The notes under the pieces are model-generated. The model was not told where the DNA came from, did not search any database, and saw only the letters and a program-made list of their open reading frames with translations. Positions 38,012-41,892 of a DNA stretch of 64,000 bases are shown here, one piece after another. Position 1 is the first letter of the stretch; every line of letters begins with the position of its first letter. Source of the stretch: Methylocystaceae bacterium (GTDB lineage Bacteria; Pseudomonadota; Alphaproteobacteria; Rhodospirillales; Terasakiellaceae); contig JABXIG010000001.1 in the NCBI GenBank assembly GCA_013373205.1, forward strand, positions 1-64,000. Direction: 5' to 3'. Made by a program: the position numbers and the translations under genes.

Positions 38012-38734
38012 AGCCTGCTTTGTCGGGCGCACAATAATCTCGTTTACATCGACATCACTGGGCTGTTCAATCGCATATAGAACGCTGCGTGCAATGGCAT
38101 TGGCATCTATGGCATCTTCATAAAGCTTGTTTATCCCTTGAGCGATCTTTTCATTACTGATCGATTGGGTGAGTTCAGATGTCACTGCCCCCGGTGAAAT
38201 AATTGTTGTGCGCAAATATCCGCGTGATTCCTGACGTAACCCTTCTGAAATGGCGCGCACGGCATATTTGGTCGCACTATAAACCCCGGCTGAGGGGGTG
38301 ACCACATGTCCGGCAACGGATGCGATATTAATAATATGACCGGATTTCTGGGTTTGCATTGTGTCCATCACAGCGGCAATGCCATGCAGAACACCACGGA
38401 TATTGACGTCGATCATGCGATTCCATTCATCCAGTTTCTTTTCGGCAAAAAAGGATAAGGGCATCACACCTGCATTATTAATCAACACATCAATGCGACC
38501 GAATGTATCCAAAGCAAGCTGGGCCAACTGATTGACATCTTCTTCTTTGGTGACATCACAAGCCATGACTTCTGCTGAGCTTGGCAATTCGCTTTTTAGA
38601 GTTTTCAGGTTATCCAGACGGCGTGCCCCGAGGATAAGGTTTGCCCCTTGGGCAGATAGCAAGCGTGCCATTGCTGCTCCAAGGCCACTACTGGCACCGG
38701 TGATGATGATTGTTTTATCGCTTAAATCCGCCAT
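38006..38734 (-). CDS. Short-chain dehydrogenase/reductase
   Basis: 242 residues. NADP-binding GASSGLGAAMARLL (about 14-27), NNAG at about 90, catalytic Ser in NIASVAGH and YSATK (about 155-159). This is the common YdfG-like SDR group with broad substrates such as 3-hydroxy acids; the specific substrate cannot be assigned. It has its own upstream region and overlaps the solute-binding gene at the 3' end. Confidence 0.9.
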   Translation of the reverse strand: MADLSDKTIIITGASSGLGAAMARLLSAQGANLILGARRLDNLKTLKSELPSSAEVMACDVTKEEDVNQLAQLALDTFGRIDVLINNAGVMPLSFFAEKKLDEWNRMIDVNIRGVLHGIAAVMDTMQTQKSGHIINIASVAGHVVTPSAGVYSATKYAVRAISEGLRQESRGYLRTTIISPGAVTSELTQSISNEKIAQGINKLYEDAIDANAIARSVLYAIEQPSDVDVNEIIVRPTKQAL

Positions 38735-38866: not shown

Positions 38867-39355
38867 ATGCATAACGAAGAACATCTCATTCACGAAATTA
38901 AACGCGAATTGGACTGGGCAGCATCGGAAGTGCAACGCACCGAAGCCGAAGTCATGCGTCTGGAAGTGGATTTTAATAAATCCATGGAAACAGCAGACGC
39001 GCAGGATGTCAAACGCCTGACGAAAGAGAAAGAACATCTGCAGGAACGTATCGGACTAAATGAAGCCTATGGATTGCAACGCCGTGCAGCCAAACGGTTT
39101 TATATGATTAGTCATGTTTATGATATTGCCAGTACGGGAAAATCATCTGAACATATCCGCGAACAATTAAGCTGTTTTCTCTATCGTTCTATCGATGGTG
39201 TGGCGGAAAATGCAGATCAGCGTGACAAGCTCTTGGAACTTGCAGAAGGATTGTTGGCTTATTTTTCAGGCGGTCATAGTGACGAAGCCGATGAAGCCAT
39301 CCGTGAAGCCTGGCAGAATATTGAGGAAACCTTGCGTCATCTTGGTCGAAAGTAA
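38867..39355 (+). CDS. Hypothetical coiled-coil protein
   Basis: 162 residues; not recognised. Residues about 1-70 are rich in Glu, Lys and Arg with a heptad pattern (ELDWAASEVQRTEAEVMRLE, TKEKEHLQERIGL), so a coiled coil is likely. The rest is alpha-helical with an acidic stretch (GGHSDEADEAIREAW). It has no signal peptide or membrane helix. GGA lies 8-9 bases before the ATG, and codon use matches its neighbours, so it looks like a real gene. Function unknown. Confidence 0.7.
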   Translation: MHNEEHLIHEIKRELDWAASEVQRTEAEVMRLEVDFNKSMETADAQDVKRLTKEKEHLQERIGLNEAYGLQRRAAKRFYMISHVYDIASTGKSSEHIREQLSCFLYRSIDGVAENADQRDKLLELAEGLLAYFSGGHSDEADEAIREAWQNIEETLRHLGRK

Positions 39356-39361
39356 CGGGAC

Positions 39362-39392
39362 AAAAAAAGAAGCCGACCCGAAGGTCGACTTT
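39362..39392 (-). terminator. Intrinsic terminator with UUCG loop (end of candidate small RNA)
   Basis: Minus strand: AGTCGACC, loop TTCG, GGTCGGCT (39390-39371), with one G-U pair that pairs only in this orientation, then C and T7. On the plus strand the same stem has a C-A mismatch and no T-tract, so it serves the minus strand. Confidence 0.8.
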
Positions 39393-39530
39393 CGAAAGTT
39401 TAATAGAAGCTATTACTAGCTTCTAGGCGCTCTGATTCGGATCCGAAGATCCGAAAAAGGTATCGATTGTCTGTATATCAACTGAAAGTCTTTATACTTC
39501 AAACCGATAAGATCGGCGGAATAGATGTTC
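39362..39530 (-). ncRNA. Candidate structured small RNA with UUCG and GUAA hairpins
   Basis: On the minus strand, downstream of TATAAT (39536-39531), five stem-loops follow each other. CCGAT-CTT-ATCGG is at 39516-39504. A TGAAGT/ACTTTCA stem is near 39502-39482. TTCGGATC-TTCG-GATCCGAA is at 39455-39436. TAGAAGCTA-GTAA-TAGCTTCTA is at 39425-39404. The terminator stem with a TTCG loop is at 39392-39369, followed by T7. The loops make sense only on this strand: C(UUCG)G twice and a GNRA-type GUAA once. The upstream small gene has its own terminator at 39585-39563. No coding potential is apparent. A -35 box is not convincing, so the 5' end is uncertain. It matches no RNA family I can name. Confidence 0.6.
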
Positions 39531-39562
39531 ATTATAATAACCTAAAATTCAAGTAATTCCAC

Positions 39563-39585
39563 AAAAAAATGATACGTAGCATCAC
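39563..39585 (-). terminator. Terminator downstream of the 72-residue protein gene
   Basis: Minus strand: GTGATGC, loop TAC, GTATCAT (39585-39569), followed by T6 (39568-39563). It lies about 80 bases after the stop of the gene at 39663-39881. Confidence 0.65.
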
Positions 39586-39662
39586 TTAGGGAGATGTGCA
39601 GGCTAATACAAAAGGATAGTTTATCCGCCGACTGGTTTTTTGCCTGATCAACTTATTGGTTT

Positions 39663-39929: not shown

Positions 39930-40937
39930 TTAGGACGTAAAGACCTTATGCATGCCTTTTACCTTTTGCACCGGCGTTTGAGCCGTGTCAGGATTATTGG
40001 CTTCCCCGATAATGATCATCCAGCGTGAGGCCAGCGCATCCAGACGCGCTGCGACCCGGTGTAAATCCGAATAGCTTTTGTCAAAATTATCTTTCTTCAT
40101 TTTTTCAATGATGGGCTGAAGCTGTTTAGACAAATTGGTATATTCTTTCGCCATCAGGTCCAGTTCCTGTTTGAAGCCAAGAAAGATTTCCTTGATGCGG
40201 GTCTTGGCCGTTGGCCCGATATCGCTATTTGCGAGTTTGCGCAAAATTCCTTCAAAACCGCTTTGGGCTTTGCGTATTTTTAAGGCCTTACCCTTGATCC
40301 GTTCAATCAACGTCAAGGCAACCCCGTATTTAAACAAACGGTTCACAACTTCATTTGTAGATATGTCTAACACTTTTGCGGCCAAAGCAAATTGGTCTTT
40401 TGCAGGCATGGCTTCGCGCAGTTTATCTAGTTCTGCCTGATCCTCAATGTCTTGTTCCTGCTTAAGTAACGCATCGATCAGGAGTTTTGCTACATAGCGC
40501 TGCATTTGACCAAACAGGCGGTTGCGTTCAGCCATTTTTTCCTTGGGGTTATATTGATCAACCAGACGCAAGGCAGCCCCTTCCAGAAACGGACCGTTAT
40601 CGCCGTCACGTTCAAGGGGGCGTTGGACGAAAGCTAAATACTGACTGGAGGCAAGCCCGTTTAAACCGGGCACAAGTTGGGGGAGCCGGGTTGGATTAAC
40701 GAGGCGGTCCTGTTCGTTACGTTCTTTGTTAACCCATTGGTTTTCTTGTGATTTTAATCGTTGTAAGGCCCCGACATCTAAAACAATCTCCCCATCACCG
40801 CGACGGGTGAGGATGAGTTGAGACAGTAAAACCTTAGTGTCATCGGAAATTTTACTTTGGGCTTCTGCCATTTCCAATGTTTGTCCAACAGCGTGACGGA
40901 TGGACTGAAAAATATCGTCGTTCGTATCCCCGGCCAT
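39930..40937 (-). CDS. Hypothetical 335-residue cytoplasmic protein
   Basis: No family recognised. It is almost entirely helical and charged, without signal peptide or membrane segment. Features visible are LSQLILTRRGDGEIVLDVGALQ near 45-65 (split here), RNRLFGQMQRYVAKLLIDALL near 135, a helical region IKGKALKIRKAQSGFEGILRK near 215 and a C-terminal helical bundle ending in VQKVKGMHKVFTS. The repeated hydrophobic heptads suggest a bundle or oligomer. It probably forms an operon with the 72-residue gene. The start ATG at 40937 follows a plausible AGGA (GGACGCCAG) site. Confidence 0.7.
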   Translation of the reverse strand: MAGDTNDDIFQSIRHAVGQTLEMAEAQSKISDDTKVLLSQLILTRRGDGEIVLDVGALQRLKSQENQWVNKERNEQDRLVNPTRLPQLVPGLNGLASSQYLAFVQRPLERDGDNGPFLEGAALRLVDQYNPKEKMAERNRLFGQMQRYVAKLLIDALLKQEQDIEDQAELDKLREAMPAKDQFALAAKVLDISTNEVVNRLFKYGVALTLIERIKGKALKIRKAQSGFEGILRKLANSDIGPTAKTRIKEIFLGFKQELDLMAKEYTNLSKQLQPIIEKMKKDNFDKSYSDLHRVAARLDALASRWMIIIGEANNPDTAQTPVQKVKGMHKVFTS

Positions 40938-41115
40938 GAAACTGGCGTCCTTTTATTCTAAAACTGCTGCGGTAGAGTTTATGTGTTTTATTATTCAGAG
41001 TTATATAAGAATTTTTCTTTATAAAAAAGCATAAAGCCATGAAAAAAACAAAGTATCCTGTATATAAGTCTATGATAGGGTCGGCGATTGGCGCTACAAA
41101 ATGGAAGGTTGTCCC

Positions 41116-41892
41116 ATGAATAATAAATTTGTCCCACTTTTTGTTTTCCTCCTTTTCTTCGGTTTTCATCACGTTGTTCAGGCAAATGAATTACAAATCA
41201 AAGACTTGAAAGTTGGGGAAGGCAAAGAAGCAGTCCAGGATAAAAAGGTAAAGGTTCATTATACAGGATGGCTGTTAGATGGGAAAAAGTTCGATTCCAG
41301 TTTGGATCGTAATCAACCTTTTGAATTTACCCTGGGCGCCCGTCAGGTTATTCCCGGTTGGGATCAAGGCGTGCAAGGTATGAAGGTCGGGGGCAAACGC
41401 GAACTGATTATTCCCGCTCATTTGGCCTATGGTGCGCGTGGGGCAGGCGGTGTCATTCCCCCAAATGCGACTTTGCGCTTTGAAATCGAATTGCTTGATG
41501 TGATGGCGCCTGCCTTCCAAAATATTGATAATGCAACGCTAAAAGAGCTGAAATCCCAAGGGGTCAAGCTGGTAGATGTGCGCACTCCCCAAGAATGGAA
41601 AGATACCGGGGTGATCGAAGGCAGCTATCTTTTGCCTTTTAGAATGCCGAATGGACGCATTAATCCAAAATTCGTTGAAGATTTAAGCCGAATCGTAAAA
41701 CCGGATGAAAAAGTTATGTTGATTTGTCGCACCGGAAACCGAACACGCATGGCCTCTGAAGGGTTAAGCAGTCAGTTTGGCTTTACACAGATCTTTAACG
41801 TCAAACATGGCATAACTGATTGGCTAAAAGGAAATAATCCGATCGTGAAACCTGATCTGTCCAACCTGAATAAAACATGTTCAATGTGTTAA
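41116..41892 (+). CDS. Exported FKBP-type peptidyl-prolyl isomerase fused to a rhodanese domain
   Basis: 258 residues. Signal peptide about 1-23 ([17 protein letters not shown]). An FKBP domain spans about 33-130 with [31 protein letters not shown] and [17 protein letters not shown], a full active-site set. A rhodanese domain spans about 138-238 with [10 protein letters not shown] and the active loop CRTGNRT (Cys204). The C-terminus ends NKTCSMC, a CxxC pair (Cys255, Cys258). ATG 41116 was chosen because AAGG lies about 8 bases upstream; the ATG at 41101 would disturb the signal peptide. It would fold proteins and carry sulfane sulfur or redox in the periplasm. The next gene is a sulfur-compound transporter. 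Confidence 0.9.

Follow-up and report, generated by a model that had tools for sequence, protein, structure and literature searches.

Does the DNA between protein genes on the minus strand of this window (the whole 64-kb stretch of DNA that was analysed, carried by a genome of 4.09 Mb) encode an RNA of its own, and if so, of what kind? An undescribed small RNA had been predicted here from the letters of the stretch, as a stack of five hairpins between two terminators. Comparison with related genomes makes it very probable that this DNA encodes a real, undescribed regulatory RNA. The stable minus-strand hairpins, their loops, the T7 tract and the TATAAT box named in the original prediction all held up, while the five-hairpin fold, the claim that there is no open frame and the upstream terminator did not. 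The unit consists of an RNA of about 39526-39362, minus strand, with a promoter region extending to 39590 (Table 1). On sequence evidence the RNA gene is well supported; for its mechanism and targets we infer what is set out below.

Table 1. Positions of the RNA gene, its structural elements and its promoter region within the window.
Feature	Position	Strand	Basis or remark
Conserved promoter-proximal element CCTAAGTGATGCTACGTATCAT	39569..39590	-	Near-palindrome, core TACGTA 39578-39573
-10 box TATAAT	39531..39536	-	Alignment of six genomes
Structured RNA gene	39362..39526	-	157-165 nt across six genomes; start inferred from -10 box and conservation edge
Nearly invariant 5' segment AUCUAUUCCGCCGAUCUU	39509..39526	-	Proposed target-pairing seed
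Possible closing helix P1	39428..39518	-	CGC 39518-39516 with GCG 39430-39428
Hairpin P2, long variable arm	39462..39508	-	Alignment columns 21-42 with 46-67
Hairpin P3	39432..39459	-	C(UUCG)G loop in own genome only
Hairpin P4 with GNRA tetraloop 39416-39413	39404..39425	-	GNRA in 6/6 genomes
Hairpin P5 and T7, intrinsic terminator	39362..39391	-	Scan; covariation; all 6 genomes

The locus was compared by blastn with 60 genomes, its own included, among which are five congeners (the Terasakiella genomes G001 to G005). All five congeners carry a homologue, at E 2.9e-20 or better, and the remaining matches, in the genus and outside it, are short stretches at E 4.4e-5 or weaker. Mean identity is 77% over the RNA and 97% over its first 22 nt; it is 33% in the 60 nt downstream and 36% in the 60 nt upstream. 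A model of the full RNA (R1) found one strong copy in each genome of the genus, other matches there scoring 23 bits or less. Across the order (317 genomes) it had matches at E<=0.1 in 77, the genus accounting for six; scores were at most 35.7 bits outside the genus versus 163.6 or more inside. Four conserved motifs were looked for in 33 of the weak R1 loci (L040-L063 outside the genus and L064-L072 within it): in all 33 the 5' motif (21 nt) and the junction motif (18 nt) had at least 5 mismatches, and a short middle motif (14 nt) lay within 2 mismatches in three. Because the weak R1 matches covered terminator-like hairpins, as seen by eye in six loci, a second model (R2) was built without the terminator. 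This left the genus only, and the R1 matches elsewhere were dropped as homologues. R2 matched six of the 317 genomes of the order (E<=0.1), all six being the genus; among 385 genomes drawn from the class, the window's own was the one match (E<=0.01). Searches of this size run under Infernal's stricter filters and at these E-value cut-offs, and may therefore have passed over very diverged relatives. A two-part pattern run over genome contigs returned three records (T. pusilla DSM 6293, T. brassicae CGMCC 1.15254 and a 'Methylocystaceae bacterium' MAG), and viral contigs gave 0 matches. By this comparison the RNA is single-copy and restricted to the genus among the genomes searched.

Alignment of the six sequences yielded a consensus fold of 48 pairs, in which 97.9% of cells are paired compared to 92.8% after shuffling (0/500 shuffles). 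Twelve of the 48 pairs have changed on both sides, versus a shuffled mean of 4.8 (none of 500 shuffles reaches 12), and the covariation score is 0.288 versus 0.176 shuffled (0/500), with slid controls at 0.025-0.088. Five measures of the fold were set against 500 shuffles and the slid controls: controls are lower on the four with 0/500, and on the fifth, a weaker covariation measure (further pair types), the observed 28 compares with 24.6 and is reached by 14 of the 500 shuffles. The compensating base changes in relatives by which the original prediction was to be checked are present in all five congeners.

The conserved fold has four hairpins, P2 to P5, and the first two of the five hairpins originally drawn are not its conserved form. 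For the local first hairpin (CCGAT/ATCGG) the partition function gives pair probabilities of 0-0.08 in the five relatives and of 0.31-0.41 in the window's genome. The partner of ATCGGTT in the consensus fold is instead a more distant stretch, so that one long arm, P2, is formed. In G002 the pair G25-C63 has become A-U, a change that P2 tolerates but that disrupts the outermost pair of the local first hairpin. Changes on both sides affect 6 of the 18 pairs of P2 (95.1% of cells paired) and 4 of the 9 pairs of P3 (100% paired). P4, whose stem is also 100% paired, shows one-sided changes in 3 of 9 pairs and both-sided changes in none. The GUAA loop that had been noticed here is indeed present in P4, and across the six genomes the loop takes four spellings (GTAA, GTGA, GAGA, GGGA, GTGA, GAGA). 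The C(UUCG)G loops also exist, one with UUCG at 39447-39444 and a second in the 3' terminator, yet they belong to the window's genome and are absent from its relatives. Comparison thus shows an RNA fold that is kept, in P2, P3 and P5 by covariation and in P4 by one-sided changes. The closing helix P1 is more tentative, with a mean pair probability of 0.17-0.58, and lies beyond a test by covariation because it never varies. At the 3' end, the terminator scan picked up 39391-39370, the predicted T7 tract stands at 39368-39362 on the minus strand, and in all six genomes P5 has a T run and folds to between -12.1 and -16.3 kcal/mol.

The stability of the fold was assessed in two ways. The region 39355-39562 folds to -58.8 kcal/mol compared to -44.1 kcal/mol when shuffled (sd 4.3; z -3.44; 0/200 shuffles as stable), and the unit, at -51.7, is equalled or surpassed by 108 of 852 segments of 165 nt sampled from both strands of the 64 kb. 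Among sampled segments of similar GC none of 92 matches the unit's stability.

The 64-kb window had no match at gathering score among 4227 Rfam families, which presumably include 6S, SRP and tmRNA. Checking the region against Rfam at permissive thresholds, in the window and in the six loci, likewise brought nothing above any family's cut-off. Taken with the compensating changes in five of five congeners, this supports the call of an undescribed small RNA gene. Weak matches are either confined to the 3' hairpins or far under the cut-off. SorX (RF02784, 'Singlet oxygen resistance RNA X') resembles the unit in having a hairpin, then a linker, then a GC-rich terminator, and matches in three relatives at 25.7-27.7 bits, below its gathering score of 46.6; however, the match is confined to P4 and P5, and the ACCUCCCU stretch of the SorX consensus is largely unmatched. 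Two further families, mmgR/suhB (RF00519; best 25.3 bits, 18.4 in the window) and ncS025 (RF02869; 30.7 bits in the window, absent for the six loci at E<=1), weakly match the 3' hairpins and miss their gathering scores of 41 and 46; at 77 and 85 positions, these models leave the greater part of the unit unaccounted for. Ysr49 (RF02766, 29.5 bits; gathering score 95) and BjrC1505 (RF02356, 23.5 bits; gathering score 50) each appear in G002 only.

Among Rhizobiales, sRNAs usually have a narrow phylogenetic range, and 32 of 39 trans-encoded sRNA families of Sinorhizobium/Rhizobiaceae are restricted to Rhizobiaceae, according to an excerpt of the source (PMC3927594). As described in that excerpt, these families are likewise intergenic, with several hairpins and limited to a genus or family; they differ in belonging to another order, R2 finds nothing outside Terasakiella, and the comparison with them was made through Rfam only. 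With no Rfam match at gathering score, and a narrow range being usual for such sRNAs, we class the unit as a new family of a familiar kind. It is a well-supported RNA family absent from Rfam 15, and it comes with a covariance model, a regulatory motif and a candidate seed; the general picture is unchanged, as genus-limited sRNAs are expected. Within the collection of papers that we searched, none combined 'Terasakiella' with 'small RNA' or 'sRNA'.

We sought to establish whether the RNA has a promoter of its own. The TATAAT predicted just upstream is there, at 39536-39531 on the minus strand; it reads TATAAT or TATACT in five of six genomes and is weaker in G004, and the 13 nt containing it are 69% identical across the alignment. 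TACGTA is found in all six genomes, 51-52 nt before the start of ATCTATTCC, with a spacer of 12-13 nt that is merely 40% identical. Identity is 73% over the 38 nt surrounding TACGTA and 36% over the next 60 nt upstream. From its sequence we propose the CCTAAGTGATGCTACGTATCAT element, lying some 50 bp before the RNA begins, as a candidate activator or operator site, with a half-site that we take to resemble those of FNR/FixK. ATGNTACGTANCAT occurs in a single place in the window's genome. With up to 3 mismatches the longer element marks this locus in five of the six genomes (the G002 copy being more divergent) and two other places, both in G001; any further sites of the regulator would therefore be different in sequence. 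A sigma-70 scan finds no site at the putative RNA promoter, so there is no recognisable -35, and it is because no -35 box is visible that we infer a regulator-dependent promoter, at which the regulator would bind the TACGTA element and activate transcription from the -10 box.

Part of this region, 39563-39585, had been read as the terminator of the preceding small protein gene. The terminator scan does not report it, and relatives do not keep it as a terminator: its hairpin amounts to -6.6 kcal/mol here, to between -3.0 and -4.1 in four relatives and to -1.1 in G002, where an A run takes the place of the T run. The block seems better explained as a promoter element, although the T run kept in five genomes, the window's own included, and the moderate hairpin here count against this reading.

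The neighbouring genes bear on the same point. A 335-aa gene (39930-40937, minus strand) lies upstream, on the same strand as the RNA, in all six genomes. Its protein has no Pfam match at E<=0.001, and homologues (E<=1e-5) occur in six of 60 genomes, the window's own and the five congeners; because this neighbour is limited in that way, synteny is unable to reveal remote copies of the RNA. A 72-aa gene stands between it and the RNA in three of the six genomes. On the downstream side a convergent 162-aa gene is found in four genomes, and different genes in G001 and G005. As the unit is kept while these neighbours change, the RNA is not a leader tied to one particular gene downstream. Within the window, the next frame of any size on its own strand encodes a short-chain dehydrogenase of 242 aa and starts at 38734, about 630 nt away and past the convergent gene. 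A further neighbour in all six genomes, at 41101-41892 on the plus strand, is a 263-aa fusion protein in which Pfam recognises an FKBP-type prolyl isomerase and a rhodanese domain.

With the 335-aa gene so placed in every genome, the RNA could instead be cut from the 3' UTR of its mRNA (extended by the 72-aa gene where present) and have no promoter of its own, and UTR-derived sRNAs are known in Rhodobacter sphaeroides, going by an excerpt of PMC8625941. We consider this origin unlikely, since the -10 box and TACGTA are both conserved and keep a fixed distance across a spacer that is not, which is how a promoter is laid out, and since the 72-aa gene is there in just three genomes.

The account that we favour, and hold to be probable, is that of a free-standing sRNA gene, the first of a hitherto undescribed Terasakiella family, which acts in trans by pairing of its 5' segment with mRNA. 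RNA polymerase would halt at P5, the nearly invariant 5' segment (AUCUAUUCCGCCGAUCU) would pair with one or more mRNAs, probably aided by a chaperone such as Hfq, and P2-P5 would serve as a stabilising scaffold. Counting from 39526, 21 of 22 columns are invariant in the six genomes. Columns 1-10 are largely unpaired in all six (unpaired probability 0.88-0.99), and columns 14-20 have values of 0.36-0.92, with internal pairing possible, most of all in G004. The antisense mechanism is our best guess, by analogy and from this near-invariant segment. The complement of the segment, GATCGGCGGAATAGATG, has the look of an AUG preceded by a ribosome-binding site, a likeness that suggests the blocking of translation starts.

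To look for targets, near-matches to the 5' segment (up to 3 mismatches) were collected from the six genomes, with the reversed pattern as control. There were 50 non-self sites versus 28 for the control, an excess that carries no inference because the reversed control differs in dinucleotides. The matched ATG opens a frame of at least 60 codons in five of the 50, and in four of these five the opposite strand has a longer frame. Wobble-aware matching gave 19 non-self sites versus 9 for the control, of which 18 were examined. From both searches (18 of the 19 in the second) a single start-codon site was accepted, before a 484-aa lipoprotein gene of G005, where 16 of 17 positions pair, two G-U pairs included. 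Its predicted duplex reaches -18.6 kcal/mol, versus -4.3 to -8.4 for the five orthologues in the remaining genomes, where the pairing is lost, and the gene was rejected as a conserved target. No conserved mRNA target emerged from the 50 near-matches and the 18 of 19 wobble-aware matches in the six genomes.

That neither search found a conserved mRNA partner is what one would expect if the structured RNA bound a protein or a ligand, as a scaffold, sponge or mimic, and antisense pairing were not its mode; the GAGCGCCTAG junction, invariant in all six genomes, and the GNRA loop common to them point the same way. We nevertheless find this doubtful, as the best-conserved stretch is the 5' segment, with its first ten columns largely unpaired as for a pairing seed, and no Rfam family reaches threshold. 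Just as improbable, in our view, is a lineage-specific RNA born in Terasakiella beside the equally genus-limited 335-aa gene and working mainly by its fold, in which the invariant junction and the GNRA loop would dock to a protein or to the RNA itself, under an activator recognising CCTAAG-N2-ATGATACGTATCAT, and not by ordinary antisense.

The unit had been described as free of any open frame, which is wrong for the window's genome: a frame of 38 aa, 39532-39416, overlaps the RNA. It has an ATG, an AGG 8 nt ahead of it and 38 codons, and could be taken for a small protein gene. Its ATG derives from TATAATG and is missing at that place in all five relatives, so that (counting ATG starts only) the frame exists in one of six genomes. 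Indels do not come in threes, and the sole ATG frame of at least 15 codons in the relatives' units is one of 16 codons in G002 that starts elsewhere. By comparison, the unit contains no conserved reading frame; the 38-codon frame is already refuted as a conserved gene on these sequences, and we give a small protein hardly any credence. The idea that palindromes and two terminators cluster here by chance, for which one might cite the lack of a clear excess of terminator-like sites in the scan (3 in 1.4 kb versus 1.5 expected), is refuted by the 12 pairs changed on both sides and the sharp edges of conservation, leaving it a negligible probability.

A minor observation concerns the -10 region in the window's genome. 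Its 28 nt at 39531-39558 are 89% identical to a stretch (L002, 1501-1528) that lies upstream of a cytochrome-c-like gene, by eye SoxX-like. They also match G002 (89%) and G001 (96% over 26 nt), once each, and are not preserved in the relatives' RNA promoters.
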